DNA of 64,000 nucleotides, from NCBI RefSeq assembly GCF_000421145.1, contig NZ_ATWH01000004.1, positions 62,001 through 126,000 on the forward strand, given 5' to 3'. The position numbers and the translations under genes are program-made. The stretch comes from Glaciibacter superstes DSM 21135 (GTDB lineage Bacteria > Actinomycetota > Actinomycetes > Actinomycetales > Microbacteriaceae). The notes under the pieces were generated by a model. That model was given only the letters and a program-made list of their open reading frames with translations, searched no databases and was not told the DNA's origin. Below are positions 19,673 to 43,790 of the stretch, in pieces (the first letter of the stretch is position 1; every line of letters begins with the position of its first letter).

Positions 19673-19702
19673 GCCGCTCAAGCGGTCGGCCACTGAACAA
19701 GA

Positions 19703-20073: not shown

Positions 20074-20249
20074 ACGCGAGCGCCTTCTTCATCGTGAAAG
20101 CCTGCCCGCTGCGTCATCGTCAACTCCATAGAAACGGGCGCAACCCACAGTCACCCGTTACCGATTCCCAAACCACGCCGAAGCGGAGGTTTTCAAATGG
20201 GACAACCAGAAGGGCTACGCGGAGGTTCCTTATGAGTCAACGCGAATGG

Positions 20250-20286
20250 TTGCATTCGTTGGGGTACTGACTATAACCTGTCAGTA
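20250..20286 (+). promoter_or_regulatory. mobA promoter with MarR-type operator
   Basis: The candidate -35 TTGCAT (20250-20255) and -10 TATAAC (20272-20277) are 16 bp apart. A perfect 7-bp inverted repeat, TACTGAC (20265-20271) and GTCAGTA (20280-20286), brackets the -10. A repressor dimer bound here would block the promoter; the MarR protein encoded just downstream of mobA is the obvious candidate. Confidence 0.65.
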
Positions 20287-20341
20287 TCGGCACTCTTGAC
20301 TTATGAAGCAGCCGCCAACGCCGCACTCAAGGAGGATTCGC

Positions 20342-22225
20342 GTGCAATTCCACCGAGACGGCTTCAGACTGGGCGACCCACGCATTCAACCAGCCGCCCC
20401 AGACACGACCGCGGAGCCCGACGTATCCGATAACGTTGACGTTCTCATCGTGGGCAGTGGTCCAGCTGGCAACCTGCTTGGAGCACATCTTTCGCAGTTT
20501 CCGACCGTTACCACGATGCTCGTAGAGCGGAGGCCGGGCCGCCTCGAACTCGGCCAAGCTGACGGTATCGCTTGCCGTACCGTCGAGATGTTTGAATCGT
20601 TTGGTCTTTCGCGAAAACTGCTTGAAGAGGCCTACTGGGTGAATGAAACAAGTTTCTGGCGCCCTGCCACCGACAACCGTGAGAACATCGTGCGCACCGG
20701 TCGAATTCAGGACGTCGAAGACGGACTGAGTGAGTTCCCGCACGTCATCGTAAATCAGGCGCGAATCCATGACTATCTGCTCGATTTCATGGAGCGCAGT
20801 CGAACGCGACTCGTGCCAGATTACAGCTTCGAGTTTCTCGACCTCGAGGTGAATCGCGCTCGTGAGTATCCTGTCACGGCGCAACTACGCGATGTGCGGA
20901 GCAGCGAAGTTCGCACCGTGCACGCCAAGTACGTCGTGGGTGCCGACGGGGCTCGAAGTAACGTACGTAGGGCAATCGGTCGCGAGTTGTACGGAGATTC
21001 GGCCGGTCACGCCTGGGGCGTAATGGATATCCTCGCCATCACCGATTTCCCAGATATTCGGCTGAAGGCAGCGATCCAATCCGCCGAGTCCGGAAGCATC
21101 CTCCTGATCCCACGCGAGGGTGGATACCTGGTGCGCCTGTACGTTGATCTCGGCGAGGTCGACGAGAGTAACAGGGCCGAAGTTCGAAGTCGTACCGCGG
21201 AACAGATCATCGAGATCGCGAATCAGGTGCTGCACCCTTACACCCTCGACGTCCAAGAGATCGCTTGGTGGTCCGTCTACGAGGTAGCGCAGCGAGTCAC
21301 CGACGGCTTCGATGACGTGGCAGGGTTCGATCTCGACCCGCGGGTCTTCATCGCTGGGGATGCTTGCCACACGCACAGCGCCAAGGCGGGCCAAGGCATG
21401 AACATCTCGATGCAGGACGCACTTAACCTCGGATGGAAACTCAGTTCCGTACTCCAGGGCCTCGCCGACCCCTCGCTACTCGAGACATACTCTCTCGAAC
21501 GTCAGCCGACCGCCCAGCAACTTATCGATTTCGACCGCGAGTGGTCCACCATGATGGCAGCTGGCCCGCGCGACCCGAATCACCCGGAGCGCGGGGGCGT
21601 CGATCCCGAAGAGCTGCAAGAATACTTCACCAGATCGGGGAAGTACACCGCGGGCCTCGGGATTCGCTACGCTCCTTCTCGGCTGACCGGCCAAGGTGAG
21701 GCTCAGCTGCTCGCGACCGGTTTCGAGGTTGGTACCCGGATCCACTCCTTCCCCGTCACCAGAGTGTCCGATGCGAAACACCTCGAACTCGGACACGTAC
21801 ATCGGGCCGATGGGCGCTTCCGGGTCTACCTCTTCAGCGACGAAGATGAGACAGCGTTCGTTCAGCTCTGCGATTGGCTCGAGCGGGATCCCACCTCACC
21901 AATCGTGCGCCACACCCCGGCGGGGTGGAACATTGACGACGTCATCGATGTACGCGGTATCGTGCAGCGGCCGCACCGCGACGTTGGTCTCCACGAGTTA
22001 CCGAACCTCTTGCGCCCCCGCACTGGTAGTCATGGTCTCATCGACCAGGAGAAGGTTTTCTCATCGGTAACCCGATCCGGAGAACTCTTTAACGCTCGCG
22101 GCATTGATCGGAAACAGGGCGCCGTGGTGATCGTCCGTCCGGATCAGTACATCGCCGATGTGCTAGCGCTGAACGACTTTAACGGTCTATCGGGCTACTT
22201 CGACGGCGTGCTACGTCTCGTTTGA
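20342..22225 (+). CDS. mobA: 3-hydroxybenzoate 4-monooxygenase (MobA-like, FAD-dependent)
   Basis: 627 residues from the GTG at 20342, chosen because AAGGAGG lies 6 bp upstream and homologues begin at this QFH..GFR..G motif; the upstream ATG would bury that site. The FAD-binding GSGPAG is at 38-43, the second FAD motif is in GDACHTHSAKAGQGMN, and a thioredoxin-like C-terminal domain ends with RGIDRKQGAVVIVRPDQYIADVL. Similarity to Comamonas MobA extends over the whole length (LGQADGIACRT, TFW-like, LSEFPHVI, NQARIHD). The reaction is 3-hydroxybenzoate + NADPH + O2 to protocatechuate, the substrate of the pca operon at 44.9-54 kb. Base composition is more A/T-rich than the flanks. A phenol hydroxylase with another substrate cannot be excluded. 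Confidence 0.88.
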   Translation: MQFHRDGFRLGDPRIQPAAPDTTAEPDVSDNVDVLIVGSGPAGNLLGAHLSQFPTVTTMLVERRPGRLELGQADGIACRTVEMFESFGLSRKLLEEAYWVNETSFWRPATDNRENIVRTGRIQDVEDGLSEFPHVIVNQARIHDYLLDFMERSRTRLVPDYSFEFLDLEVNRAREYPVTAQLRDVRSSEVRTVHAKYVVGADGARSNVRRAIGRELYGDSAGHAWGVMDILAITDFPDIRLKAAIQSAESGSILLIPREGGYLVRLYVDLGEVDESNRAEVRSRTAEQIIEIANQVLHPYTLDVQEIAWWSVYEVAQRVTDGFDDVAGFDLDPRVFIAGDACHTHSAKAGQGMNISMQDALNLGWKLSSVLQGLADPSLLETYSLERQPTAQQLIDFDREWSTMMAAGPRDPNHPERGGVDPEELQEYFTRSGKYTAGLGIRYAPSRLTGQGEAQLLATGFEVGTRIHSFPVTRVSDAKHLELGHVHRADGRFRVYLFSDEDETAFVQLCDWLERDPTSPIVRHTPAGWNIDDVIDVRGIVQRPHRDVGLHELPNLLRPRTGSHGLIDQEKVFSSVTRSGELFNARGIDRKQGAVVIVRPDQYIADVLALNDFNGLSGYFDGVLRLV

Positions 22226-22285
22226 TAATGGCAGGTCCGGCCAACCGCACGATTCCTGCTGCTGAACAGTGCCACACTGAGATTT

Positions 22286-24910: not shown

Positions 24911-26536
24911 CTACCCCTGAGAAGAAGCCAAAGCCTTTGCACTCAAATAGCCGGACACCATGCCAGCACCGAGGGTCGCACCCGCGCCAGGGTATCCAGC
25001 CCCGAACCAGCTCGCCGCAACATTTCCCGCCGCGTAAAGTCCAGGAATCGGGCCACTTCTATCGGCACGAAGTACGTTGCCGGTGGCGTCTGTGAGCGGG
25101 CCGCCTTTGGTGCCGAGCGCCCCGAGTCGGATCTGAACGGCATAGTACGGGCCGCCTTCGAGTGGGCGGAGGTTACGGTGCGGTGTTACCCGCGCATCTC
25201 CTCGATAGGTGTCGTAAGCAGACTCGCCACGGTGGAACTCAGGATCCTTACCCGTCGCGGCGTACTCGTTGTACCGCGTGATCTGGTCGTTGAAGCCGGC
25301 CTTATCGATACCGACCTTCTCAGCGAGCTCGTCGAGTGAATCCGCCACTGTAATCCATGCCGGTGTAAAGGCATCCGGAGTGACCATTCCCACCGAATAG
25401 GAGTCGCGGAAGCGCTGATCGAAGATCAGCCAGCATGGCTGGTTAGCGTATGCGTAATTCTGCGGATCGAAGTTGCCGAGCGCCTTGCCCATGTCGTTGT
25501 AGTTCATCGCCTCATTCACGAAGCGGTGCCCAGCTTGGTTGACAATGATGCCGCCGGGCAGCGTACGCAAACTGCTGGTCGGGCGGTAGAGTGGCTCGTC
25601 ATCGTAGGTGTCTCCTTCGGCGTAGAGCGTCGGGGTCCACCAGGCTTCACTCATATTGCCCAGCGCAGCTCCGGCCTCCATCGCCATGATGAGACCGTCG
25701 CCGGTATTCGCTGGCGGGCTAGCCGGGGAGTTCAGGGGCTTGCCAAGGAATTGATCGACCAGATTCTTGTTCCACTCGAACCCACCGCTCGCGAGTACGA
25801 CACCGCGCTCCGCGCGGATCTCCTCTTCGAGGCCGTTGTGTTCGATGACAACACCGGCGACTACGCCGTCATCACCGCGGATGAGTGAAAAGGCAGGCGA
25901 GTCAACGAGCACCGTCACACCGCGGTCGAGACATCCCTTGAGTAGAGCGCCACAGAGCGCTGCCCCCATCCCGACGATGCCCTGGGACACCCGATCAGCG
26001 ACGAGAGCCCAGTCCCAGCGGTCCATCGTGTCCTGACCCCACGCATCCACCTCGAGGCGGGTGATCGGAACGCCACTATGGGACGTCCGTAGCTTGGTTT
26101 GAAAGTCCCCGAGCAGTGTACTGTCGAAAAGATCGCCCTGCAGAGTGCGACCGCCCTCGGCCTTGGCACCCGGCAACTCCGGCTGGTAGTCGGGATGATG
26201 AGGATTCGCCTCAAACTTGATCCCGGTTAGAGCGACGACCTCGTCGAGCATTGGATTCACCGTGTCCACGAAGGTGGTGTAAAGCTCCTCGTCCACCCGG
26301 TCAAGGGTTAGTGCGCGCAAATACTCGATCACCTCGTCACGGCTGTCACCGCGGCCAAGCTCCGCCATATAACGATTCCCCGGCGCCCAGATGGAGCCGC
26401 CCGAGACCACGCTGGTACCACCGATCACTCCCGTCTTCTCGACAACGGTTACCTTGAGACCTTCCGCGGCGGCGATAAGTGCGGCGGTGAGCCCGGATGC
26501 ACCGGAACCAATGACGACCACGTCTGTGTGCTGCAT
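24911..26536 (-). CDS. FAD-dependent dehydrogenase, 3-ketosteroid-dehydrogenase/fumarate-reductase-like
   Basis: 541 residues. It starts with the dinucleotide-binding motif VVVIGSGASGLTAALIAAAEG and then GGTSVVSGGSIWAPGN, a hallmark of the FAD_binding_2 family, which includes 3-ketosteroid delta-1-dehydrogenases. A C-terminal FAD motif GLYAAGNVAASWFGAGYPGAGATLG closes the fold. Such enzymes put a double bond next to a ring ketone or reduce activated alkenes. A good ribosome-binding site (CGAGGAAA) precedes the ATG. It lies downstream of the Opp-type transporter genes and upstream of the enoate reductase on the same strand, so the genes are probably co-transcribed. The substrate is unknown. 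Confidence 0.87.
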   Translation of the reverse strand: MQHTDVVVIGSGASGLTAALIAAAEGLKVTVVEKTGVIGGTSVVSGGSIWAPGNRYMAELGRGDSRDEVIEYLRALTLDRVDEELYTTFVDTVNPMLDEVVALTGIKFEANPHHPDYQPELPGAKAEGGRTLQGDLFDSTLLGDFQTKLRTSHSGVPITRLEVDAWGQDTMDRWDWALVADRVSQGIVGMGAALCGALLKGCLDRGVTVLVDSPAFSLIRGDDGVVAGVVIEHNGLEEEIRAERGVVLASGGFEWNKNLVDQFLGKPLNSPASPPANTGDGLIMAMEAGAALGNMSEAWWTPTLYAEGDTYDDEPLYRPTSSLRTLPGGIIVNQAGHRFVNEAMNYNDMGKALGNFDPQNYAYANQPCWLIFDQRFRDSYSVGMVTPDAFTPAWITVADSLDELAEKVGIDKAGFNDQITRYNEYAATGKDPEFHRGESAYDTYRGDARVTPHRNLRPLEGGPYYAVQIRLGALGTKGGPLTDATGNVLRADRSGPIPGLYAAGNVAASWFGAGYPGAGATLGAGMVSGYLSAKALASSQG

Positions 26537-26592: not shown

Positions 26593-27603
26593 TTATTTGG
26601 AGAGACTTGCGACGTTGTGACACGCAATGAACTGACCGCGTGCCTTTTCTTCCAGTTGTGGTTCTTCTTCCACGCAAAGCGCTGTCGCCAGCGGACACCT
26701 GGTTCGGAACCGGCATCCGCTCGGTGGGTTCAACGGCGACGGGAGTTCCTGCACCTCCCCTGGAAGACCGGGGAACACTCGCTCCCCGGTAACCTTGGGC
26801 ACTGATTCCAACAACAGATCGGTATAGGGGTGATGAATGGTCTCCCGATCAAGGGCCTCAACGTCCATGACCTCGGCGACCTTGCCGAGATACATAACGA
26901 TGATGCGGTCGCTGATGTTTTTCACGACACCGAGGTCGTGTGAGATGAACATCAGCGAGAGCCCGAGCTCGCGCTTCGTGCGCTTCAAAAGATTCAACAT
27001 CTGACTCTGCACCGACACATCGAGGCTCGAGAGGATCTCGTCACAGATGAGTAGCTCGGGTCGCATCATCAGTGCACGTGCGATCGACACCCGCTGGCAC
27101 TGCCCCCCGGAGAGCTCGTATGGGTAGCGGTTCCAGATCGTGTCGGGGTCGAGTCCGACCGATTCAAGCAGCTCGCGGACCCGGGACTCGGTTCGAGCCT
27201 TGTCATCGCCCCGGTTCCAAATCGAGACACCCTCGGCCACCAAATCTTTCACCCTGCGGCGCGGGTTGAGCGAAGCGATGGGGTCCTGGAAGATTAACTG
27301 CATCCTGACCCGAGATTCACGTAGCTTCTCCGCGCTCAACTCGGTCAGGTCGATGTTATCGAGAACAACACTCCCCGAGGTGGGCTGCGGCAGGTGCATA
27401 ACGGCGCGAGCCACCGTCGACTTGCCGCAGCCGGATTCGCCCACGATTCCGACGGTTTCTCCGGGGAGAATATCGAAACTAATTCCCGAAACCGCGTGCA
27501 CACGCTGCCCACTCTTGGCCTGGAACTCGACAACGAGATCCTCGACCCGGAGCCGCGCGTCTGTTTTCTCCTTGAGATGGGCCTTTCCGGTGCCAGCCAT
27601 CAC
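26593..27603 (-). CDS. Oligopeptide/dipeptide-type ABC transporter ATPase (OppF/DppF-like)
   Basis: 336 residues. Walker A is GESGCGKST (about 56-64), the signature is LSGGQCQRVSIARAL, the Walker B region reads LLICDEILSSLD, and the C-terminal oligo_HPY segment contains PSPLNPPSGCRFRTRCPLA. It hydrolyses ATP to drive import through the Dpp-type permeases. The GTG start overlaps the stop of the OppD-like gene by 4 bp. Opp/Dpp-type importers carry many solutes besides peptides; the island context suggests an organic growth substrate. Confidence 0.92.
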   Translation of the reverse strand: MMAGTGKAHLKEKTDARLRVEDLVVEFQAKSGQRVHAVSGISFDILPGETVGIVGESGCGKSTVARAVMHLPQPTSGSVVLDNIDLTELSAEKLRESRVRMQLIFQDPIASLNPRRRVKDLVAEGVSIWNRGDDKARTESRVRELLESVGLDPDTIWNRYPYELSGGQCQRVSIARALMMRPELLICDEILSSLDVSVQSQMLNLLKRTKRELGLSLMFISHDLGVVKNISDRIIVMYLGKVAEVMDVEALDRETIHHPYTDLLLESVPKVTGERVFPGLPGEVQELPSPLNPPSGCRFRTRCPLATALCVEEEPQLEEKARGQFIACHNVASLSK

Positions 27604-28679
27604 GGAGCTCCTTCCTGGCTATTGTCGACAGTGGTTCGCACGGCCAACCCATCAATGGGGAAGAAGCAAGCCGCCTTATGTTCGGGCGCAGCATCCGAGA
27701 CTGGTTCGAGAAGTGGCTCTTGCTCTCGACAGATAGCCCTCGCGTTCTGGCAACGCGGTGCGAAGCGACAACCTGGAAAACGGTCGGTCGGATCCGGCGG
27801 ACGGCCAGTGATCGACAGTAGTTCGGCGTGGGCGGGACTATCGAGCATTGGTTTCGAGGCCAGCAGACCATAGGCGTATGGATGATACTGGCGCACGAAG
27901 AACTCGCTGGCGGGTGCTTTCTCTTGGATTCGACCCGCGTACATCACCATCACCTCATCACTTCGTCCCGCGACTACCCCGAGATCATGACTGACCAGGA
28001 TCATGGCCATGCCCTGCTCCTCACAGATCGCGCCGAGCAGGTCGAGCACGTGCTTCTGCACTGTCACATCGAGTGCGGTCGTCGGCTCATCAGCGACCAG
28101 CAGCTGAGGGCTACACGCGAGCGCGATCGCAATTCCGACGCGCTGGCGCATACCACCCGAAAGCTCGTGGGGATACTGGCCGAAGCGCCGCTGAGGATCG
28201 GGGATGCGTACTTTGTCGAGCAAGCCGATTGCCTGCTCCTTCGCATCCCGGCGGCTCAGCGAACGGTCGTGCTGACGGAGAGTCTCGGTGACGTGCGTGC
28301 CAACCAACTTGACCGGGTTGAGTGAGCTCAGCGGATCCTGGAAGATCATGGCAATTTTGGAGCCGAGAAATTCCGAACGGAGCTTCTTATCCGGGTTCGT
28401 AAAATCAACGCCGTCAAAGAGAATTTGCCCGGACACCGTCGCATTTCCGGACAGACCGGTCAGACCCATGATGGTACGTCCCAAAACGGATTTTCCGCTG
28501 CCGGACTCTCCAACGATGCCCAGCGTTTTCCCGCGATGAAGATCGAAAGAAACCCGCTCCACGGATACCACTTCTCCGCTCGGGGTGGAAAAGGAAGCAC
28601 TCAGATCGCGCACCCGCAATAGCGTCTTGCTCGGCTCAATATCGGCGGGTACTGCGTGGAGTGTGTTGGTCCCGATCAT
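27600..28679 (-). CDS. Oligopeptide/dipeptide-type ABC transporter ATPase (OppD/DppD-like)
   Basis: 359 residues. Walker A is GESGSGKSV (about 55-63), the signature is LSGGMRQRVGIAIAL, Walker B is LLVADEPTTALD, and the C-terminal oligo_HPY region has the PGCRFAPRCQNA cysteines. It pairs with the OppF-like ATPase as a heterodimer. It overlaps the preceding permease gene by 4 bp, so the four transporter genes are translationally coupled. Confidence 0.92.
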   Translation of the reverse strand: MIGTNTLHAVPADIEPSKTLLRVRDLSASFSTPSGEVVSVERVSFDLHRGKTLGIVGESGSGKSVLGRTIMGLTGLSGNATVSGQILFDGVDFTNPDKKLRSEFLGSKIAMIFQDPLSSLNPVKLVGTHVTETLRQHDRSLSRRDAKEQAIGLLDKVRIPDPQRRFGQYPHELSGGMRQRVGIAIALACSPQLLVADEPTTALDVTVQKHVLDLLGAICEEQGMAMILVSHDLGVVAGRSDEVMVMYAGRIQEKAPASEFFVRQYHPYAYGLLASKPMLDSPAHAELLSITGRPPDPTDRFPGCRFAPRCQNARAICREQEPLLEPVSDAAPEHKAACFFPIDGLAVRTTVDNSQEGAP

Positions 28680-29590
28680 AGTGATACCTCTCGTTTATCC
28701 CAACGCTTGCGCATTCGTTCTCCCAAAAGGTTGAATGAGAACACCGTAAGGAAGAGCACTGTCGCGGGGATAAAAACAAGATGCGGATACTGCTCCATCT
28801 TGCCTCCCAATCCTTCAGCAATCATGTTTCCCCAGGACGGCGTCGGCTGGCGAATGCCGACTCCAAGAAAGCCGAGAGACGCCTCGGCCACAATGAGCAC
28901 GGAGATGTACACGAAGCTGAGCGACATCATCGAAAGCAACACATTCGGAAGAAGCTCGCGGAGGATTACGCGGCCCGGCTTTGCGCCGAGCGCACGGGCA
29001 ACGGTGATGAATTCCCGTTGTGTAAACGCAAGTGTATTTGCCCGAGCCAATCGGATGAGACCGGGGGAAGCAACCAGCGCAAGCGAAAATGTCAAACTCA
29101 CAACGCTCGGACGCAGCACCGTGGAGAGTGCGATCAGAAGGATAAGTGCGGGCACCGCCAGGAGCGTATTCGTGAGGACACCGATGACGGCCTCCCAAGC
29201 CCCACGCAGGTAGCCCGCTGAGGTACCGAGCATGGCGCCAACCGCCATGCCAATTGCCACAGCCGCAACGCCAACAGTAAGAGAGATCCGAGCGCCATAG
29301 ATTAACCGAGCGAAGATGTCGAGCCCAAGTCCGTTGGTTCCTAATGGATGTCCCGGCACTGTGAACGGCGGCTGATTCGTCGGTTCCATAAGAGTCTTGG
29401 ACGCGTCCTGCGCCTCCGCAAGCGGAAGCAGCGGTGCAAATATCGCGGCGAGGACAATCGCACCGAGCCAGAGAATGCAGAACCACAGAAGTAGGTCGAC
29501 GTGGAAATTCTTGCGGGGCTTTTCGAAAGAGACCGGGATGGGAGTTGTCTTCGGTGCGGCGAGTGGCCGCCTTGTTTCATGTTGTGGCAC
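28676..29590 (-). CDS. Dpp/Opp-type ABC transporter permease (DppC-like)
   Basis: 304 residues from the GTG at 29590, which has GAGGAT upstream and overlaps the preceding permease gene by 14 bp; an earlier in-frame start at 29650 would overlap it by 74 bp. The polar N-terminus contains the TPIPVSFEKPRKNFHVD segment. The first membrane helix (LLLWFCILWLGAIVLAAIFAPLLP), a periplasmic loop, five more helices and the permease loop ARALGAKPGRVILRELLPN follow. It is the C-type membrane subunit of the importer. Confidence 0.9.
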   Translation of the reverse strand: MPQHETRRPLAAPKTTPIPVSFEKPRKNFHVDLLLWFCILWLGAIVLAAIFAPLLPLAEAQDASKTLMEPTNQPPFTVPGHPLGTNGLGLDIFARLIYGARISLTVGVAAVAIGMAVGAMLGTSAGYLRGAWEAVIGVLTNTLLAVPALILLIALSTVLRPSVVSLTFSLALVASPGLIRLARANTLAFTQREFITVARALGAKPGRVILRELLPNVLLSMMSLSFVYISVLIVAEASLGFLGVGIRQPTPSWGNMIAEGLGGKMEQYPHLVFIPATVLFLTVFSFNLLGERMRKRWDKREVSL

Positions 29591-33717: not shown

Positions 33718-33886
33718 CAAATCTCCCAAGGTATATTGGTGGGCGTCCTTGCCGACCATTAGTTGTCCGGCGACTGTGCCAGTTCGGAGTCGAGTAATTG
33801 TAATCAGGGTGAAGAATGGCAAATTTAGTTTCCTTCTCGCCATCCTGCGTGCGAAAACGACAGTCTGAGGCAGTGCTAAAGTTCGT

Positions 33887-35317: not shown

Positions 35318-35410
35318 GCTCCCGAAACTTAGCCTCAGTCCCCGGGGTCGCTGTGAAACCAGAGGGCATCGTTCTTCAGTGCAGAATTCCGTTGCGCACT
35401 GTCGAACGCT

Positions 35411-36226
35411 TTAGACAAAGGTGTCGAGCCGAGGTGCAAGCTCCTTCGCCTCCAACATGAGCATCGAACCGATCTGATGCAACCGGCTTCCCGAGCAGTG
35501 CGAGGATTGAAGCGCCACCGCTATCGCGCCGTGCACCCTCCCCTTCGTATCGCGAAGCGGAGCTGCGACACCCGCGATGCCGCGTTCGCTTTCGTCGAGG
35601 CTCACCGCGTAGCCGCGCCGAAGCACGGACGTAAGTTGACGACTCAACTCGAACAGATCAGTTACCGTTGCCGCATATAACGCTGGTAGCCCATGAGGAT
35701 AGAGTGCCGCGAGTTCAGCCGCGGCCAGATGCGCGAGTAGCGCACGACCCCCCGCAGTGGTGTGCGCCGGCAGCACCATGCCCTCTTTACTATCGATCCG
35801 GTCCGGGTCCTCACCCTCAATGCCGCTAAGAAAACGAACGCTGGGCCCCTGGAGCACCATCAAGTGCACTGTTTCTTTCGACTCAGCGCTGATCTTTGCG
35901 AGAGTGCCCCGCGTCACCGCGCGTAGGTCCGGCGTGTTTGGATTTTCGGGCAACGACGCGAACGAAGGCCCCAGGCGATATCGTTTGGCCGCGTCTTGCA
36001 CCGCAAAGCCGTGATAGACCAACATGGAAAGCATTCGATGCGCCGTTGAGGGTGCCACGCGCAGCTTTCGGGAGGCCTCAATAACCCCGATTCCGTTACC
36101 GAGCTGACCACCCATCACATTATTCGGGGCGTATTCGACGGCCCGGTTGCGGAGCAGGTGCAAAAGACGCAACGCATTGTCGACAGATTCAATCGGGTAC
36201 GTCACGACCTTGGGTGAATTCTGCAT
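35411..36226 (-). CDS. IclR-family transcriptional regulator
   Basis: 271 residues. The N-terminal winged helix includes IGVIEASRKLRVAPSTAHRMLSMLVYHGFAVQD. The C-terminal effector domain includes VHLMVLQGPSVRFLSGIEG and GVAAPLRDTKGRVHGAIAVAL. An insert of about 15 residues (NRAVEYAPNNVMGGQLGNGIG) before the recognition helix is unusual. It is divergent from the SRPBCC gene at 36339 and sits at the head of the aldehyde-dehydrogenase/transporter unit. IclR proteins often control aromatic catabolism, so it probably responds to an island metabolite. Confidence 0.92.
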   Translation of the reverse strand: MQNSPKVVTYPIESVDNALRLLHLLRNRAVEYAPNNVMGGQLGNGIGVIEASRKLRVAPSTAHRMLSMLVYHGFAVQDAAKRYRLGPSFASLPENPNTPDLRAVTRGTLAKISAESKETVHLMVLQGPSVRFLSGIEGEDPDRIDSKEGMVLPAHTTAGGRALLAHLAAAELAALYPHGLPALYAATVTDLFELSRQLTSVLRRGYAVSLDESERGIAGVAAPLRDTKGRVHGAIAVALQSSHCSGSRLHQIGSMLMLEAKELAPRLDTFV

Positions 36227-36338
36227 AGTAGAATCATAGGCGCGAAACTAAGTCACCACAATGACGCAGTGCATAGCCTGATTGACAAGGCATCAACAGC
36301 AGCGACCAACGAAGGTCGCCAGCCGCATCGGAGGTTTT

Positions 36339-36953
36339 ATGTCTGAAATTGAGTACACCGTGCAGATCAACGCACCCGTCGATGAGGTCTGGAGTTTCAT
36401 TGAGGACTTCCAAAACTGGGCTCGCTTCGTGATCGGCTACCAGAAGATGGAGTTAGTCAACGAGAAGCGTTCTACGTGGACGTTACGCGGCGACGTTGGA
36501 ATGCTCGCGCGCGAGGTAGACATTCAGGTCGACATCACCGAATGGATGCCGGGTGAGCGAGTCGAATTCCAACTTACCGGGCTTACAGAGCGCATTTCCG
36601 GGTCCGGCTCAATGGTCATGACCGCGGTGCAACCCGGTGAAAAGGTTATTGAGGGCAGGGTAGACGCCGACGGGAGTAGTCCATCCTGGGGCAAACGACT
36701 CCAGGCAAAGGTGGCGCGTTCCGTCATTGATCGCGCCACGACTGATGGCGGCCATGCCGAGGTCACGAACGAACCCGATGTACCCTTCGAAGGCGAGTCA
36801 TCTCGCCTAACCGGAAGACTACAGTTGCAACCGGGCGGCGCGATGGCGCCAATGCTCGATATGTTGATGGCGCCAATGCTGCAACCTGCTGCTGAAGATC
36901 TCGTACGAGGTATCCGTGGGGCATTGGAGAAGAACGGGAGCGCTATGCGCTGA
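36339..36953 (+). CDS. SRPBCC-family protein (CoxG-like)
   Basis: 204 residues from the ATG at 36339, chosen for the GGAGG just upstream. The sequence starts EIEYTVQINAPVDEVWSFIEDFQNWARF, the usual first strand and helix of START/Bet v1-like folds, with a G-x-G-x motif (ISGSGSMVMTAVQPGEKVIEG) in the sheet. The tail is hydrophobic and Met-rich (APMLDMLMAPMLQP). Relatives (CoxG) help mature or anchor molybdenum hydroxylases, but no coxLMS genes are nearby. Here it may bind a hydrophobic pathway intermediate; this is inference. Confidence 0.85.
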   Translation: MSEIEYTVQINAPVDEVWSFIEDFQNWARFVIGYQKMELVNEKRSTWTLRGDVGMLAREVDIQVDITEWMPGERVEFQLTGLTERISGSGSMVMTAVQPGEKVIEGRVDADGSSPSWGKRLQAKVARSVIDRATTDGGHAEVTNEPDVPFEGESSRLTGRLQLQPGGAMAPMLDMLMAPMLQPAAEDLVRGIRGALEKNGSAMR

Positions 36954-37044
36954 ACAGATGCTGTCTGTCGTTAACCACTGTTGCCACAGCAAGCTTGTGC
37001 CATGCTTTATCTCAATCACATCACGCTAGTACTCAGGAGTTCTC

Positions 37045-37827
37045 TTGACAGTTGCTGCTGAGACACCATCGGATCAGGGCTATCCCATTAGTTCGGTCGA
37101 CAATGCGCTGCGTCTCCTCGAGCTGTTTGCACAAGGTACGCCGAGTATCCGGGTTGCCGAGGCCAGTCGGATACTCGGTGTCGCGCGCTCCACAGCTCAC
37201 CGGCTGCTCCAGGTATTAGCCGTTCGAGAATTTGTCCGGCAAGATCCAGACAGCCGCGTGTATCTCATTGGGCCAGCCCTCATCCGGTTGTCCATCGCTG
37301 TATCACGCGGATTAGATCTCGCCACGGTCGCGCGCCCCATCATGAGCGATCTCGTCGAGACAACGGGCGAAACAGTCCACCTCGTGGTGCTGCACGGCGC
37401 CGACGCCTTTTTTCTCGAATCGATTGAAACATCAAAGGGCCTTCGAGTCGGCGGCCGCGCGGGACAACTGCTGCCCGCTTATGCCACCGCAAGCGGGCGT
37501 GTATTGCTCGCAGAGTTCAGTGCAGACGAATTGCACCACCTGTTGCAGAGTCCAACGCTACCTCGGTTGACGCCCCACACGGTTGGGCAACGATCAAAGC
37601 TTGAAAGCATACTCGCAGACACCCGCCAGCGCGGATATGCGACCTCATATGGGGAGAGCGAGGAGGACGTGTCGTCTGTTGCTGTCCCGGTGCGACGGCA
37701 CGACGATAGCGTTATTGCTGCGTTGGCAGTCGGAGCACCCCCCTCTCGTCTTTCCGACGATGACGCGCCAGCCATCGCGAAAGCGCTGCAGGCCGCGGCC
37801 CGTCAAATCAGTGATCGTCTCCCCTGA
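37045..37827 (+). CDS. IclR-family transcriptional regulator (second in island)
   Basis: 260 residues starting at a TTG with CAGGAG 8 bp upstream. The winged helix is IRVAEASRILGVARSTAHRLLQVLAVREFVRQD. The effector domain contains ETVHLVVLHGADAFFLESIETSKGLRVGGRAGQLLPAYATASGRVLLA. It has no insert before the recognition helix, unlike the IclR at 35411, so the two are distinct. It follows the SRPBCC gene on the same strand after 91 bp, and a strong terminator ends the unit. Confidence 0.92.
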   Translation: MTVAAETPSDQGYPISSVDNALRLLELFAQGTPSIRVAEASRILGVARSTAHRLLQVLAVREFVRQDPDSRVYLIGPALIRLSIAVSRGLDLATVARPIMSDLVETTGETVHLVVLHGADAFFLESIETSKGLRVGGRAGQLLPAYATASGRVLLAEFSADELHHLLQSPTLPRLTPHTVGQRSKLESILADTRQRGYATSYGESEEDVSSVAVPVRRHDDSVIAALAVGAPPSRLSDDDAPAIAKALQAAARQISDRLP

Positions 37828-37868
37828 GCAACATCACTCGGTGCAGGGTTACGCTGCATTCTTATTCA

Positions 37869-37909
37869 CCCCGCTGAAGACGCCTCGCGGCATCTTCAGC
37901 GGGGCGCTT
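37869..37909. terminator. Bidirectional terminator between the IclR and MFS genes
   Basis: A 12-bp stem (CCCCGCTGAAGA, 37869-37880, with 37893-37904) encloses a smaller GCC-TCGC-GGC stem and is followed by CGCTTTT on the plus strand. It separates convergent genes and can end transcripts from both sides. Confidence 0.85.
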
Positions 37910-37922
37910 TTCGAGCCGCGCG

Positions 37923-39299
37923 CTAACCCCTACTCTGCACGTGGGTCCTTGGGATGAAGAATCCGATCACGGTGCAGACAGTTGCGGCGACTAAGCCCAA
38001 GATGAAGATAAGAGAGAACGACGCGACGATATCGTCGCCAGCGGAAGCAGCGATGATGGCCCCAGCCACGACCGAAGCGGCGGTGGTACCAAAGGACCGC
38101 ATGAGCGTATTCACTCCGTTTGCGGATCCGATCTCGTTCTTCGGAACCGCGCCCATGATGAGTGCGGGCATCGCCGCATAACCGAGTCCGACACCCGCCC
38201 CAATCACGATGTTCGCGACCACAATCGTCCACACCTGTAATGGCATGAAGAGACACACGAGATAGGCGGCAGTAATCACCATTGCTCCGGCGATCAATAA
38301 GGGTCTTGGCCCCGCGGTGCGCCCGACTCGCCCCGCGATCGGCGACATAACGAGCATCGCAAGACCGGCGGGGACCAGCACCAAACTAGCGGAGAGCAAA
38401 TCTAGGCCGAGGCCGCCCACCACTCCCGGAAGCTGTAGGAGCTGCGGAAACGCGACGCTTGATGCAAATAAGGCGAAACCCATCGCGACAGATGCCAGGT
38501 TCGTGGTCAATACCGTCCTACGGACGCTCACTCGTAGATCGACGAGCGGGTCGTCGATACGCAGCTCGTGCCCTGCCCAGGCGACGAGCACGATGAGGCC
38601 ACCGATTAGACAGCCGAGCACCCCCGCAGAGTTCCAGCCCCAGACATTGCCTTGAGACACGGCAAGTAGAATTCCGCTGAGACCCACCGTAAGGCCAATT
38701 ACACCAACGACATCAATGCGGCCCCGTTGCGAAACTCCACCGTCCGGCACCACCAAGTACACCAGGACAAAGTTAATCAGCGCAAGAGCCGCAGCGACGA
38801 GAAAGAGCACGTGCCAATCGGCGTTTTGTACCACCACTGCGCTGACCGGAAGACCAATGGCTGCACCGACGCCGAGCGTCGCGGAAACCAAGGCGATAGC
38901 GGTCCCGAGTCGCCTGGTGTCAACCACGTCACCCAGCAGCGAGATACCAAGTGGAATGATGCCCATGCCAAGTCCTTGAAGAGCGCGACCCAAGATCATC
39001 GTGCCCAAACCGGGGGCAAGTGCGCAGACAAGGGAACCCAGGAAAAGCACGCCAAGCAGAACGAGTGCAACCGCACGTTTCCCATACATATCGCCGAGCT
39101 TGCCGGAGATGGGAACCGAAATAGCAGAAGAAAGGAGCGTGACCGTGATCACCCAGGCCGTTGCCGATGGACTCGCCCCGAGCAGACGCGGCAGCTCCCC
39201 CTGGATCGGCATGAGAATGGTCTGCATGAATGATGCGCCCATGCCGGCGGATGAGAGCGCGCCAACCGCAAGGTATTGCCGAGCTCGGCTATATAACAA
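37923..39299 (-). CDS. MFS transporter, DHA2-like (13-14 TM)
   Basis: 458 residues with about 13-14 hydrophobic segments, motif A as GKLGDMYGKRAVA, and LGRALQGLGMGIIPLG before the motif-C region. It resembles drug/H+ antiporters of the DHA2 type but lacks a long tail. In the island it may export a toxic intermediate or import an organic acid; sequence alone does not decide direction. It lies 8 bp downstream of the decarboxylase-like gene and is probably part of the unit SDR - decarboxylase - MFS. Confidence 0.88.
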   Translation of the reverse strand: MLYSRARQYLAVGALSSAGMGASFMQTILMPIQGELPRLLGASPSATAWVITVTLLSSAISVPISGKLGDMYGKRAVALVLLGVLFLGSLVCALAPGLGTMILGRALQGLGMGIIPLGISLLGDVVDTRRLGTAIALVSATLGVGAAIGLPVSAVVVQNADWHVLFLVAAALALINFVLVYLVVPDGGVSQRGRIDVVGVIGLTVGLSGILLAVSQGNVWGWNSAGVLGCLIGGLIVLVAWAGHELRIDDPLVDLRVSVRRTVLTTNLASVAMGFALFASSVAFPQLLQLPGVVGGLGLDLLSASLVLVPAGLAMLVMSPIAGRVGRTAGPRPLLIAGAMVITAAYLVCLFMPLQVWTIVVANIVIGAGVGLGYAAMPALIMGAVPKNEIGSANGVNTLMRSFGTTAASVVAGAIIAASAGDDIVASFSLIFILGLVAATVCTVIGFFIPRTHVQSRG

Positions 39300-39307
39300 A
39301 GCGCTGC

Positions 39308-40324
39308 TCAGATGCGGAAGCTCTCGAGCACCGAGCTCGGGAACAGGTCCTCGACCTTGAGTAGCTCCTTGGTCAGGCGCTGCTCATGGGCATAGGTCAT
39401 GAAAGCTTCGAGCGTCTTGAGATTCGCGTCCACACCATAGGGCCATAGATCCGGCCCCAATACTTTGGTAGCCGCCCGGGCAGTCGTTGGACCCCACGGC
39501 ACCGGAATGTGCGGCGCTGTGCCACTGAGCATGCGCTTAACGCTACGATCCTTCGCTTCAGTGAAGGCGGTGACCAGGTTCGGGGCGAGCCAGGGATATC
39601 TGTCGAAAATGTCCTTGCGCATGACGAGTAGGTGCATAATCGGGAAAATGCCGGTGCGTCGGTAGTAGTCTTCCTCAACAGCGCGGACGTCCGAAAACAG
39701 CTGGACGATGCGACCAGACCCATCCTCGGCGGCCTCGGGCGCGTGCGGAACGACCATCGCGTCGAGATCTCCGTCCAACATAAGTTGATTAAGAGAGCGC
39801 TCTCGTTCGGCGCGAACGCTCACGCCATCTGGCAATCCAACCGGTAGCGTCTCAATACGACCAGGCTCGTTGATTCCGCCCTGAACCCAATCAATGCCGG
39901 TGAGATCAATCCCGAATTCGCTCTGCAACAGCGCACGCTGATAAACGGTCGCCGTCACGGTCCACTCGGGAAACCCAATCCGCGCACCAACTAGGGCCGA
40001 TGGATTGTCTACCGGACCATCCGCCCGCACGTAGATGCCGGAGTGCCGGAACGACCTGGAGGGAAAGACTGGCAAGCCCACCACGGAATCGTCCCCCGCA
40101 CCGCGCAACGAACAGTACTTCGCCAGCGAGAGTTCGGTGATTTCCCATTCTCGGAACTTCGTGAAGCGGAAGAATATCTCCTCCACTTCGTGATGCACCG
40201 TTCGCAAACGTACGCCATTCACCGGCACGACACCGGAGGAGATGTCACGTACCTGATCCGATTCGTTGATTGCCAGGGTCAGTTCAACACGCTCGTCAGC
40301 GCCACCCGAGTATCCAGTGCTCAT
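39308..40324 (-). CDS. 4,5-dihydroxyphthalate decarboxylase-like protein
   Basis: 338 residues. The sequence LPVFPSRSFRHSGIYVR, followed by LVGARIGFPEWTVTATVYQRALL and WVQGGINEPGR, matches proteins annotated as 4,5-dihydroxyphthalate decarboxylase (Pht5 type), a fold related to periplasmic binding proteins. There is no signal peptide, so it is cytosolic. True members remove CO2 from 4,5-dihydroxyphthalate to give protocatechuate. No phthalate dioxygenase genes are here, so the substrate may be another beta-keto or hydroxylated ring acid. Its start overlaps the SDR gene stop by 4 bp. Confidence 0.75.
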   Translation of the reverse strand: MSTGYSGGADERVELTLAINESDQVRDISSGVVPVNGVRLRTVHHEVEEIFFRFTKFREWEITELSLAKYCSLRGAGDDSVVGLPVFPSRSFRHSGIYVRADGPVDNPSALVGARIGFPEWTVTATVYQRALLQSEFGIDLTGIDWVQGGINEPGRIETLPVGLPDGVSVRAERERSLNQLMLDGDLDAMVVPHAPEAAEDGSGRIVQLFSDVRAVEEDYYRRTGIFPIMHLLVMRKDIFDRYPWLAPNLVTAFTEAKDRSVKRMLSGTAPHIPVPWGPTTARAATKVLGPDLWPYGVDANLKTLEAFMTYAHEQRLTKELLKVEDLFPSSVLESFRI

Positions 40325-41103
40325 AGGAAATTCGACCCGCCATCTACTACCATCGTCTGTCCCGTAATAGCGCTCGCCGCCGAAGAGGCCAGAAACACCG
40401 CCGCGCCGACGATGTCCCCTGGCACCAAACGGCGTTTGATCGATTGACCGCCAACAATTTGCTCGACCGCCTCTGGACGCGCGGAGTCTCGCGCGATGCC
40501 AGTGTCCACGGAGCCCGGCATGATCACATTCACGGTGACACCGTCGGGGCCGAGCTCACGAGCGAGCGAACGCGTGAGTCCCACGAGGCCGGCCTTCGAC
40601 GCGACGTAGTGCAGATAGTTGGGCCGTCCGCTGAGCACGGTCGCGGACGAAATATTGATGATCGTGCCCGAACCCTGCGCTCGCATATGTGCTGCTACTG
40701 CCTTTGTGCAGAGAAAAGTTCCCGTGAGATTGACATCGATGACCTTGCGCCACTCCGACGCAGATATTTCGTCGAATGGCTTCATCGTGAGTGTGGAGAA
40801 GATTGCAGCACTGTTGAGCAGAACATCCAGGCGGCCGAAGGCGCCGAGAGCCACCTTGACCGCGGTCTCGACGGCTTCTTCATCCGCCACATCGACCCCG
40901 ATGCCTATCGCCCGACCACCCACCGCAATAATTTCATCGGCAACAGCTTGAGCCTGACGCTCATCGAGGTCCGCGACCGCAACTGCCGCGCCGGCCGAGG
41001 CGAATCTCAGTGCAAACTCACGCCCGATCCCTTGACCACTACCCGTAATAAAGCTGGCCTTGCCCAATAGCGGTTGCTCAGTTGATGTGGTCTCCACACT
41101 CAT
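40321..41103 (-). CDS. Short-chain dehydrogenase/reductase
   Basis: 260 residues from the ATG at 41103 (AGGA upstream); a TTG 30 bp earlier is disfavoured. It has the cofactor motif TGSGQGIG, an NSAA motif (LLNSAAIF) in place of NNAG, the catalytic Ser in NISSATVLSG, and Y-x-x-x-K as YVASKAG. Asp in VADLD at the end of strand 2 indicates NAD(H) preference. It is translationally coupled to the decarboxylase-like gene, hinting that it makes or removes the keto group that the decarboxylase needs. It is divergent from the flavin oxidoreductase at 41266 across a strong inverted repeat. Confidence 0.92.
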   Translation of the reverse strand: MSVETTSTEQPLLGKASFITGSGQGIGREFALRFASAGAAVAVADLDERQAQAVADEIIAVGGRAIGIGVDVADEEAVETAVKVALGAFGRLDVLLNSAAIFSTLTMKPFDEISASEWRKVIDVNLTGTFLCTKAVAAHMRAQGSGTIINISSATVLSGRPNYLHYVASKAGLVGLTRSLARELGPDGVTVNVIMPGSVDTGIARDSARPEAVEQIVGGQSIKRRLVPGDIVGAAVFLASSAASAITGQTMVVDGGSNFL

Positions 41104-41182
41104 CCCCGTTCCTAATTCTCCTCGAAGAGTCAACCGTCTATTTCAGAAAGCCTTGACTCCGCTGCGTCGTGGAAATAGCATC

Positions 41183-41231
41183 TCATATGTTCGACGTTGC
41201 GGGCTAGCATTCTGCATACCCGAACATATGA
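41183..41231. promoter_or_regulatory. Divergent promoter with 11-bp inverted repeat
   Basis: The arms TCATATGTTCG (41183-41193) and CGAACATATGA (41221-41231) are a perfect inverted pair 27 bp apart in the region between the two divergent transcription units. Arm centres about 38 bp apart could hold a tetrameric regulator such as an IclR protein. A strong AAAGGAGGG ribosome-binding site for the plus-strand gene follows. Confidence 0.7.
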
Positions 41232-41265
41232 ATATCAGTCGAACTCAAAGGAGGGCTTAAACACG

Positions 41266-42882
41266 ATGTCGGAGAGTTATGACGGAGTCATCATTGGAGC
41301 GGGCCAGCACGGCTTGATCCTTGGCACCTACCTAGCGAAGCTCGGTCTAAAAATTGCGGTACTCGAACGGCGGCTGCAGTTTGGCGGTGGTCTGAGCACC
41401 ATCGAGCCGGGCCCCCCTGGTTTCTACCAAAACCCGCATTCGATCAACCATTTCAACATCACAAACGCCCCATGGTTCAAAGATCTGGGACTCTCGGCGA
41501 CGGTGAACTACGTCACGCCGCAGTACGAGTTCGCCCAGCCGCACCTTGACGGCTCTTCATTGGTGATCTCCCGCAGTCTTGAAGAAACGGTCGCTTCGAT
41601 TGCGCAGTTCTCGAAGAAGGATGCGGAGACGTTCCGTGACTGGAACAGTCGCTCCGAGAAGATCAGTAACGCCATATTTCTCGCCGAGCGTTATTCGGAA
41701 CCGCTCTCCGAGTTGGAACGTGAAGAACTACTCAGCAAGAGCGCGATCGGCCGAGACTTCCTCGAAATTATCGAGCACCAGCCGCTCGATCTGATCAAGG
41801 AAATGTTTGAGCACGAGAAGGTTCAGCTGCTCATGCTGTTCAAGCTCTCCCTGTTCGGTACCGTGCTCTACGACAGCGTCACGGAGAAAAGCCCAATGGG
41901 TGCTGCCGTGCGCGCCTTCGATCTTTCCGCAGGCTACCAAGTTTGCGTGGGGGGTAGTTGGAACTTGGCTCGTGGCCTCCACGAAGCCTTCATCCGTGCT
42001 GGCGGTACGTACATCAACAAAGCCGAGGTCTCGAAAATTGTCGTCGATGGAGACAAGGCCACCGGTGTCGTGCTCAGTGATGGTCGCGAGATCGGCGCTC
42101 GTCAATTCGTTGCGAGCTGCATCGACGTGCCGCAGACTTTCAATAAGCTCGTCGGTCGAGACCAGATGTCTACCGAATACCTCACTAAGGTAGACAATTT
42201 CAAGCAAACGGCATGGGGCCTTTTCGGTATTCACCTCGCACTCAACGAGGCACCCCGCTACATCGGCTCAGACTTCAACCCCAACATTAACCACGCCTTG
42301 AAGTACAACGTCGGCGCAGAGACGATGGAGGACCTCTTCGGCCTGCATGCTCAAGTGGCAGAAGGTCGCGTACCCGATCTGGTCTCGTTTGGCACCGGAC
42401 ACATTACCCAATTCGATCCATCTCAAGCGCCGGAGGGGAAGTCCACGGCCTACGCCTGGTACGCGGTTCCCTACGCCCCCGACGGAGACCCGAAGAGCAT
42501 CATGTCGAGGAAGGACGAGATCACAACCAAGGTGATGGATGTCTGGCGGCAATACGCCCCCAACCTGACAGAAGACAACATCATCGATTCCTGGGCGTAC
42601 ACGCCCTACGAATACACGGAAGAGTTCCCCGAGATGGTCAACGGTGACATCTTTATCGGCTCGTTCGCTGGTGAGCAGAGCATGTGGAACCACTTTGGAT
42701 ACCGCACACCGATTAGCAACCTCTACATGGCGGGATCACCCACCCACCCGGGCGGAGCAATCTCTGGCGGTGCCGGCTACATCGTTTCACAAATCATCGC
42801 GGATGACCTTGGGCTGACCCCCTGGTGGGACCCGATCGATGTTCGCGAAGCAATGAAGAACGCTGCTGAGCAGGCTCCCTGA
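41266..42882 (+). CDS. FAD-dependent oxidoreductase, phytoene-desaturase (CrtI)-like
   Basis: 538 residues from the ATG at 41266 (AAAGGAGGG upstream). The N-terminal FAD motif is GVIIGAGQHGLILGTYLAKLGLKIAVLERR, then FGGGLSTIEPGPPGF. The C-terminal FAD motif is NLYMAGSPTHPGGAISGGAGY. It belongs to the amine-oxidase/CrtI superfamily, whose members desaturate or isomerise C-C bonds. Carotenoid genes are absent, so it more probably desaturates an alicyclic or unsaturated island substrate. The following SDR gene (31-bp gap) is probably co-transcribed. Confidence 0.88.
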   Translation: MSESYDGVIIGAGQHGLILGTYLAKLGLKIAVLERRLQFGGGLSTIEPGPPGFYQNPHSINHFNITNAPWFKDLGLSATVNYVTPQYEFAQPHLDGSSLVISRSLEETVASIAQFSKKDAETFRDWNSRSEKISNAIFLAERYSEPLSELEREELLSKSAIGRDFLEIIEHQPLDLIKEMFEHEKVQLLMLFKLSLFGTVLYDSVTEKSPMGAAVRAFDLSAGYQVCVGGSWNLARGLHEAFIRAGGTYINKAEVSKIVVDGDKATGVVLSDGREIGARQFVASCIDVPQTFNKLVGRDQMSTEYLTKVDNFKQTAWGLFGIHLALNEAPRYIGSDFNPNINHALKYNVGAETMEDLFGLHAQVAEGRVPDLVSFGTGHITQFDPSQAPEGKSTAYAWYAVPYAPDGDPKSIMSRKDEITTKVMDVWRQYAPNLTEDNIIDSWAYTPYEYTEEFPEMVNGDIFIGSFAGEQSMWNHFGYRTPISNLYMAGSPTHPGGAISGGAGYIVSQIIADDLGLTPWWDPIDVREAMKNAAEQAP

Positions 42883-42913
42883 CCGCACGCCCAACATTAA
42901 GAAAAGGATCTTC

Positions 42914-43663
42914 ATGGGATTCGTAGGTAGGACAGCATTTATCACCGGCGCCGGAAACGGTATCGGCAAGGACATGGCGAAACATATCGTCGCAAACGGC
43001 GGAAACGTCATCATCGCAGATGTCGACGAAGCCGCTGGACGAGCTGCAGCGACGGAAATCGGAGCGGATCGTGTCCTCGCTGTACACTGTGACGTTGCAG
43101 ATCAGAACTCGGTCGAGTCCGCGGTCAAGGCCGGTGCAGAGCGCTTCGGCGGGCTAGATATCCTGGTCAACAATGCTGGACTGCATCTCACAAAATGGAA
43201 TGTACCCATCACCACGTTGGACGAAGATGCTTGGAAACTCATCCTGGGCGTCAACGTCATCGGCATTGTGAATTGTGCACGGGCGGCCCGGCCATTTCTC
43301 GCGGAGGGAAAGAGCCCTGCGATTGTTAGTCTCTCGTCAATCACGGGTTATCTTTCGAATACGGTCTACGGCATCACCAAACTCGCGGTACGAGGGCTCA
43401 CGGTCGGTCTGGCAAGCGAATTTGCACCCGATGGTATTCGGGTAAATGCGATCGCGCCCGGAGCAATCGCGTCGGAAAATGCCTTGGCAGAGTTGGCCGA
43501 AAACGATGTGATCAATCAGATGATCAACAACTATCAGCTCATTCACCGAGGCGGGACGACAACCGATATTGTGCAGGCGATGGAGTTTCTCTGCACCGAC
43601 AGCGCGAGTTTCATCACCGGTCAGACTCTGCAGGTCTCCGGCGGCTTCCCGCTCTACATCTGA
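42914..43663 (+). CDS. Short-chain dehydrogenase/reductase
   Basis: 249 residues. It has the cofactor motif TGAGNGIG, NNAG (LVNNAGLH), the catalytic Ser in SLSSITGYLS and Y-x-x-x-K as YGITKLA. Asp in IADVD suggests NAD(H). It is the last gene of the island, 31 bp behind the CrtI-like gene, and would interconvert a hydroxyl and a keto group on the same compound. AAAAGGA precedes the ATG. Insertion-sequence debris starts about 36 bp after the stop. Confidence 0.92.
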   Translation: MGFVGRTAFITGAGNGIGKDMAKHIVANGGNVIIADVDEAAGRAAATEIGADRVLAVHCDVADQNSVESAVKAGAERFGGLDILVNNAGLHLTKWNVPITTLDEDAWKLILGVNVIGIVNCARAARPFLAEGKSPAIVSLSSITGYLSNTVYGITKLAVRGLTVGLASEFAPDGIRVNAIAPGAIASENALAELAENDVINQMINNYQLIHRGGTTTDIVQAMEFLCTDSASFITGQTLQVSGGFPLYI

Positions 43664-43699
43664 GTGCGAGAAACATCGGGTCCAGGTTCGCGCGTATCT

Positions 43700-43790
43700 A
43701 GTGTTACTCGATGTGCGCGGACCTGGCCGCTAGTCAAGATCGTGGTCACGCCATAGACATTCTCTTGTGAGATACCCACTAAACGGGGTC
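43700..43790 (-). mobile_element. IS3-family right end, copy 1
   Basis: A 27-bp end sequence (43700-43726) and a 60-bp tail (43731-43790) recur nearly unchanged at 44563-44589 and 44710-44769. The tail in copy 2 is the last coding part of an IS3 orfB; here it is fused out of frame to the istB remnant. It marks the right border of the island. Confidence 0.7.

Follow-up and report, generated by a model that had tools for sequence, protein, structure and literature searches.

The octamer GGCATCCG forms the centre of a chromosomal word of 11 bases that has a strict ATCC core and graded edges in the genome of Glaciibacter superstes DSM 21135, and it falls to the level expected by chance in a catabolic island located within the stretch of DNA analysed here (64,000 nucleotides, positions 62,001 to 126,000 of contig NZ_ATWH01000004.1; hereafter the window). 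The word may serve chromosomal self-recognition in the manner of the DNA uptake sequences known from Neisseriaceae and Pasteurellaceae, a tentative reading to which we assign a probability of roughly 0.43. In total, 33 copies are present in the window, compared with a mean of 5.7 and a maximum of 14 in 100 dinucleotide shuffles of the whole window, with 31 located in the 40.4 kb of flanking DNA (4.2 expected from trinucleotide counts) and two in the 23.6-kb island. A preliminary description of this DNA had given 28 positions, all of which are exact, and had reported the near-absence of the word from the island. Its flank count of 26, however, was too low, as five copies had been overlooked (4040, 45044, 53450, 56795 and 58072).

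The word in the island and in the host genome

The difference between island and flanks, which the preliminary description had proposed to check, is confirmed when codon usage is taken into account. Using within-gene synonymous codon shuffling (200 shuffles), 28 copies were observed in the 35 predicted flank genes compared with 4.4 expected, whereas the 18 predicted island genes contain 2 copies at an expectation of 1.9 (Fisher p = 8e-5 for island versus flanks). Moreover, the wordless gap of 18.3 kb (26712 to 45044) is larger than the largest gap of 12.0 kb found on a second contig of this genome (400 kb analysed), where every 23.6-kb stretch carries at least three copies. Island and flanks also differ in GC content (0.591 vs 0.655), and word density climbs with GC content along that other contig (Spearman 0.62, 40 blocks). 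Hence, base composition marks the island as well, an effect for which the codon null controls.

In the whole genome (4.80 Mb, 38 contigs), GGCATCCG occurs 2,590 times (1,316 forward and 1,274 reverse), i.e. once per 1.85 kb, compared with 135 occurrences (63 and 72) of a control word consisting of the same letters in reversed order. The enrichment over a codon-shuffled null that was to be examined according to the preliminary description was indeed found, with 234 copies in 404 predicted genes compared with 44-47 under synonymous codon shuffling (z = 31). Ranking of all octamers by z over this null places GCATCCGT first and GGCATCCG second, and the latter exceeds the null in all six reading frames. 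Its density is 0.586/kb in coding and 0.555/kb in intergenic DNA, genes having been called by a simple custom predictor, so that some of this 'intergenic' DNA may represent missed genes. An earlier remark on the use of rare codons within the word proved accurate: GAT accounts for 25% of Asp codons overall, yet for 56 of 58 in the context ACG-GAY-GCC, and GCA for 15% of Ala codons overall, yet for 75 of 96 in NNG-Ala-TCC-G. By one proxy of gene typicality, the least host-like quintile of genes carries 0.235 words/kb, the other quintiles 0.56-0.77/kb. The strand distribution, also proposed for inspection, revealed no polarity (118 copies on the plus and 119 on the minus strand in 400 kb; 20:13 in the most unequal of ten 40-kb blocks), which would argue against polar sites of the KOPS or Chi type.

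Within the 464 kb that were analysed in detail, the extended consensus reads CGGCATCCGTY, with little information past about 11 nucleotides. The 10-mer CGGCATCCGT was found 111 times at an expectation of 4.5, and its one-off variants differ markedly depending on the position changed. At the four ATCC positions, 23 variants were counted compared with 40.4 expected and none exceeded 1.3 fold, whereas variants at positions 1-3 and 10 amounted to 207 compared with 42.6 expected. Ten of the 12 variants of the latter group are raised 3.3-10.8 fold, the two near expectation being those with C at position 3 and A at position 10. Variants at positions 4 and 9 are intermediate (23 vs 11.5). Close neighbour pairs of at most 100 bp were found 12 times (13.7 expected by chance), six of them in the order plus then minus.

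As a separate observation on the same 404 genes, several octamers containing CGGACG or CGTCCG are strongly depleted relative to the codon null, e.g. CGCGGACG with 32 copies instead of 98.9.

Maintenance at orthologous sites

Retention of the word was determined in 14 Cryobacterium loci of about 17-21 kb each, using all ordered pairs, which are not independent of each other, and frame- and GC-matched neighbouring 8-mers as control. At 80-85% identity, the partner carried the intact word in 176 of 322 cases compared with 21.5% of matched 8-mers, and at 85-90% identity in 285 of 389 compared with 37.5%. The bins of 70-80% and above 90% identity point in the same direction, as retention of the word exceeds that of the matched 8-mers. 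Where the encoded amino acids are unchanged, GAT-GCC is retained at 0.738 inside the word and at 0.292 outside (87 vs 67 sites, p = 2e-9). Maintenance at the DNA level, as already suggested in the preliminary description, is therefore supported by the elevation in six frames, the equal intergenic density and this retention in orthologs.

Distribution and genus dialects

The host belongs to the Cryobacterium group of the Microbacteriaceae, and all 49 genomes searched from its genus (Cryobacterium in the broad sense) are enriched in GGCATCCG (787-3,177 copies, at least 0.31/kb), while 31 genomes from other families of the same order contain 142-560 copies (at most about 0.13/kb) and are unenriched, these per-kb values being based on rounded genome sizes. 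Within the Microbacteriaceae (249 genomes, 85 genera), counts span 17 to 4,093, and the top over-represented words shift by genus (samples of 13-289 kb). Dialects were called against the codon null in 36 sample sets (21-106 kb) with a cut-off of rounded z >= 8, using no tree and aligning the words on TCC by eye. In 15 of the 36 sets, the top word reached z >= 8, and TCC is contained in all 15; the spellings sharing it are GGCATCC, CAGCATCC, CCGCATCC, GCGCATCC, GAGCATCC, GATCCTGC, GCGGATCC and CGCCTCC. Genera and genomes are designated here by the handles g and G, respectively. Either GGCATCCG or CGGCATCC is the top word in g81, g49, g102, g108 (G184), g30 and Agromyces, whereas CAGCATCC leads in g25, CCGCATCC in g44, GCGCATCC in three Pseudoclavibacter, GAGCATCC in g98, GATCCTGC in g71, GCGGATCC in g58 and G241 (g108), and CGCCTCCT or GCGCCTCC in two genomes of g59. 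Hence, g108 alone includes one genome with CGGCATCC and another with GCGGATCC. In addition, GCACGAGC, a second word of G311 (g98) that lacks TCC, attains z 8, which places the cut-off close to background there. Weaker TCC-type words (z 5-7) were obtained for seven sets (g72, Mycetocola, g26, g52, g107, g28 and Pseudoclavibacter AY1H1); for g28, GCTCCTGC scores z of only 5 over the codon null (as CTCCTGCG). No word of z 8 was found in 14 of the 36 sets, namely g38, g41, g48, g57, g79, g74, g69, g45, g75, four small-genome genera and Streptomyces. Differences extend to the bases following the octamer: T is favoured in G. superstes and CT in the 14 Cryobacterium loci, where GGCATCCGCT is a strong 10-mer.

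Several further repeats were encountered. The candidate AACCCATCCCGAA was rejected as dialect of Pseudoclavibacter AY1H1, being outside the top octamers over the codon null. Also outside these top octamers are AACCCATC (16 vs 0.5) and CATCCCGAA (11 vs 0.2), which are frequent in a 21-kb locus of this strain (L043). In the wordless genus g41 (G096, samples L133, L153, L204 and L205), CCGTGACCG was counted 25 times instead of 2.8, and it is likewise outside the top codon-null octamers listed. In samples L177 and L178 of G138, overlapping 10-mers of a TACAGAGCTA-type repeat occur 14 times and probably form a tandem array.

A possible role in DNA uptake

The pattern described above agrees with a sequence-specific recogniser that has a fixed core and no visible replication polarity, whose target is DNA as opposed to RNA or protein, and which acts on inherited and not on new DNA. 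Among the causes envisaged in the preliminary description, the dialect series around a fixed core favours a protein that recognises the word over a mere bias of mutation, and a DNA-modifying enzyme is among the candidates. If the word serves DNA uptake, a putative surface DNA receptor of the competence apparatus would favour word-bearing fragments, the fragments imported in this way would recombine into the chromosome, and the resulting biased traffic would spread and maintain the word in vertically inherited DNA. DNA recently arrived by another route, such as the island, would have yet to gain the word. A change in receptor specificity could then lead to a new spelling and, eventually, to genus dialects round the fixed TCC core. 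In its broadest form, this proposal would add Microbacteriaceae as a third family to those with self-specific uptake words, and as the first that is Gram-positive. The words would mark genus-level gene-exchange groups and would imply a DNA receptor of evolving specificity on an actinobacterial competence pilus; this extension appears more doubtful still.

Candidate competence genes are present in G. superstes, among them adjacent ComEA and ComEC genes, with scores over the cut-off for ComEC in Pfam as well as for two NCBI domain models (the helix-hairpin-helix of ComEA and the N-terminal domain of ComEC), and with scores below the NCBI cut-offs for the full-length ComEA and ComEC/Rec2 models. 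Furthermore, the genome contains three Flp-type clusters. The first consists of consecutive genes for TadA, two T2SSF proteins (TadB- and TadC-like), TadE and a Tad-domain protein, the second has a single T2SSF gene near topA, and the third, on contig 17, is known from T2SSF, TadE and TadA matches and the order of open reading frames only. A TadA relative was present in all 43 genomes checked; thus, some Flp pilus could still be universal. Rhodoluna and Aurantimicrobium are members of the Microbacteriaceae. Natural transformation has been reported for Rhodoluna lacicola and Aurantimicrobium photophilum (PMC11577799), and transformation of Micrococcus luteus requires its tad-1 and tad-2 clusters (PMC4322843). 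The first two Flp layouts of G. superstes resemble these clusters, the second of which has a fused TadB and TadC in M. luteus (PMC4322843).

Two observations on pili stand apart from this comparison. Three Cryobacterium relatives (G003:C90, G035:C11 and G013:C10) have three strong PilC-type T2SSF matches on one contig, and G. superstes has none that strong. In G225, which uses the CAGCATCC dialect, the tad-1 TadA lies in two pieces 12 kb apart (G225:C1:2604404-2617706), one of them with two in-frame stops.

Several results weigh against a role in uptake. The species reported as transformable have small genomes, and the four small-genome family members sampled show no word. ComEC is found in 245 of 249 family genomes, wordless ones included, and hence does not discriminate. 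Eight genomes with many words (from g31, g35, g67, g27 and g43; 0.27-0.45 words/kb by raw count, with two other g35 genomes being low) lack both a close tad-1 TadA and a strong PilC-type match. A tad-1 or PilC-type pilus was assigned to 17 of 22 word genera and 3 of 8 wordless ones (p = 0.078, 30 genera), some word calls being raw counts only and pilus counts possibly being underestimates where low, as up to 16 PF00482 candidates were scored per genome; addition of g45 and four small-genome genera raises the wordless fraction with pilus to 8 of 13 (p = 0.44). Due to this weak or absent association, both the uptake reading and its broadest form are given slightly less weight. An apparent lack of a second pilus in the wordless genera g75, g69 and g38, based on T2SSF match counts, was discarded, because five genera with high raw word counts lack it as well when all 249 genomes are considered. 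In addition, intergenic enrichment and an excess of close pairs, both traits of Neisseria, were not seen in G. superstes. Synonymous retention did not differ significantly inside and outside the word for GCA-TCC (A-S; 0.69 vs 0.83) and GGC-ATC (G-I; 0.75 vs 0.64), two smaller comparisons whose controls include near-words and have high baselines, and which we read as uninformative and as no support. Finally, the uptake words known to date are confined to two Gram-negative families according to PMC12616744.

Alternative explanations

The main rival, which we regard as rather unlikely, is a system similar to cyanobacterial HIP1, in which the word, or its ATCC/GGAT core, would be the target of an orphan DNA methyltransferase and would be held at about one copy per 1-2 kb through replication control, repair linked to methylation or selection in favour of methylated sites. 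In its favour, and against uptake, is an N6_N4 methyltransferase of about 300 amino acids found in all 27 word-rich genomes examined (298 amino acids in G. superstes, L213:6869-7762, corresponding to about 404.9-405.8 kb of contig C1). The 19 relatives retrieved share 69-86% identity with the G. superstes enzyme (nine were aligned), and each of the 20 loci retrieved, that of G. superstes included, has lplAB in the vicinity. At the G. superstes locus, two neighbours were identified, an oxidoreductase and LplAB. A 14-kb stretch with lplAB (L234) from G100 (g45), a genome with a weak word (14 vs 7.0 under the codon null), lacks the methyltransferase, although G100 may carry it elsewhere; in G300 and G241, the gene was not located by guesses from synteny. 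As the 27 genomes were all word-rich, the enzyme may simply be family-wide. It is this conserved methyltransferase, whether family-wide gene or cause, which holds the uptake reading below one half. PF02384 methylases were dismissed as candidates because of their patchy occurrence (20 of 27). Among solved sequences, the RsrI and CcrM methylases are nearest to the enzyme. Actinobacteria are not known to possess methyl-directed repair, which counts against a HIP1-like system. HIP1 is palindromic, moreover, while GGCATCCG is not its own reverse complement, even though the words of g58, G241 and g71 do contain the palindrome GGATCC. In cyanobacteria, HIP1 goes with orphan methyltransferases, and its mismatch-repair model assumes methyl-directed repair (PMC4390886).

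Considerably less probable is a Chi-like word that stimulates recombination via a resident RecBCD-, AddAB- or AdnAB-type nuclease and thereby marks self DNA: over-representation, core-genome enrichment and scarcity in recently acquired genes are traits of Chi (PMC8022716), whereas its leading-strand polarity has no counterpart in the even strand distribution given above. Sites of an abundant nucleoid or chromosome-organising protein, separate from DNA uptake, would be in line with strand symmetry, presence in coding and intergenic DNA and maintenance at orthologous sites, and we rate them marginally below a Chi-like role. Genus dialects would be harder to explain for a core organiser, and the site-specific organisers known to us use far fewer than thousands of 11-base sites. 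A context-dependent mutation or repair bias that creates a functionless word is very improbable. Although depletion of the transition neighbour GGCGTCCG (27 vs 84 under the codon null) alongside the gain of GGCATCCG would suit it, other CGGACG/CGTCCG octamers are also among the most depleted, the word gain (234 vs 44-47) exceeds the GGCGTCCG loss, and the enrichment covers an 11-base pattern with graded edges and varies between genera. An artefact of codon usage, protein or base composition, to which the tracking of GC content along the contig might point, is refuted for this genome by the codon null, given z = 31 after within-gene synonymous shuffling and the equal intergenic density.

The island and neighbouring loci

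The null word density of the island fits a recent arrival of DNA from a wordless source, in agreement with the origin in a wordless lineage that had been proposed earlier. Pfam matches in the island include an FAD monooxygenase (phenol hydroxylase type), MarR, an Oxidored_FMN/Pyr_redox protein, FAD_binding_2, an oligopeptide-type ABC transporter with SBP_bac_5, Zn alcohol dehydrogenase, aldehyde dehydrogenase, IclR, a Polyketide_cyc2/COXG protein, MFS, SDRs and an amine oxidase-like protein. ARAGORN detected no tRNA in the window, and no integrase signs were found among the 30 window proteins scanned with Pfam, which cover the island reading frames only in part. The aromatic-catabolism cluster to the right of the island encodes a thiolase, a hydrolase/carboxymuconolactone decarboxylase fusion, a lyase and a protein of protocatechuate 3,4-dioxygenase type. 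The host segments that end at 17.7 kb and begin at 47.8 kb are separated by 143 and 271 bp in two Mycetocola loci, in which neither the island nor 44.9-47.8 kb is present at that place. Hence, the region from 17.7 to 47.8 kb is extra relative to the Mycetocola arrangement.

Table 1 Features of the window and positions of GGCATCCG
Feature	Position	Strand	Remarks
Left host flank	1..20073		15 copies of GGCATCCG, 8 bases each
GGCATCCG in left flank	800, 1292, 4040, 5503, 6709, 8070, 8689, 11251, 13422, 16025, 16582, 16883, 16919, 18172, 20038		on - strand: 4040, 6709, 8689, 11251, 13422, 16582
Host segment	2835..17670		adjoins segment from 47.8 kb onwards in two Mycetocola loci
Catabolic island	20074..43700		23.6 kb, GC 0.59; 2 word copies, equal to codon null
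GGCATCCG, island copy 1 of 2	25370..25377	+	
GGCATCCG, island copy 2 of 2	26712..26719	+	
Stretch without GGCATCCG	26720..45043		18.3 kb
Right host flank	43701..64000		16 copies of GGCATCCG
Aromatic-catabolism cluster	44912..54066	-	largely syntenic in Cryobacterium loci compared
First GGCATCCG right of island	45044..45051	-	overlooked in preliminary description
GGCATCCG in right flank	45044, 45389, 46267, 46942, 46993, 47799, 48171, 48399, 48758, 49046, 49760, 51796, 53450, 56795, 57632, 58072		on - strand: 45044, 46942, 46993, 48758, 53450, 56795, 58072

Significance

A literature search for GGCATCCG and six other words (8-10 letters), each taken as a whole word, gave no match, and no description of the word was found among the papers listed on Microbacteriaceae octamers, actinobacterial uptake sequences, natural transformation and competence in Microbacteriaceae or Cryobacterium transformation, subscription papers, preprints and supplements being outside the scope of both searches. 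If the uptake reading is true, an actinobacterial dialect series would represent an independent origin of uptake words, and the many natural specificity switches would render the receptor findable by covariation. Counting a single word would also offer a way to spot recently acquired DNA, including the present island. Even with a methyltransferase or another protein as the cause, it would still have to be explained why a large environmental family maintains thousands of such sites and switches their dialect.

Comparison with known systems

Known uptake words comprise about 9-12 nucleotides with conserved inner cores (CTG or GCGG) and occur in clade dialects (PMC12616744; PMC3630211). A single motif suffices for uptake (PMC12616744), and atypical distribution of DNA uptake sequences (DUS) has been used to find integrative elements (PMC7371117). 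With the DUS of Neisseriaceae, the present word shares a length of about 10-12 nucleotides, very many copies, an invariant inner core, clade dialects and an atypical distribution in mobile DNA. It differs in phylum and in sequence, and here a Gram-positive envelope is involved. Inverted pairs at terminators and the intergenic bias of Neisseria have no equivalent in G. superstes, in which neither close pairs nor intergenic copies are in excess. The uptake signal sequences (USS) of Pasteurellaceae likewise consist of a 9-nucleotide core with a conserved inner part and exist in two dialects, but extend to 17 nucleotides (PMC12616744), whereas little information is found beyond about 11 nucleotides here. 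HIP1 is similar as a very abundant octamer with a possible link to orphan methyltransferases and alternative words in some genomes (PMC4390886), yet it is palindromic, while GGCATCCG is asymmetric with graded edges. Chi resembles the word as an over-represented octamer of the core genome (PMC8022716), but is polarised towards the leading strand in E. coli, of which nothing was seen here. Features of DUS and USS that were found for the present word are its occurrence far above chance on both strands, a core with dialects, depletion in recently acquired DNA (one island and one proxy of gene typicality) and the presence of competence genes.

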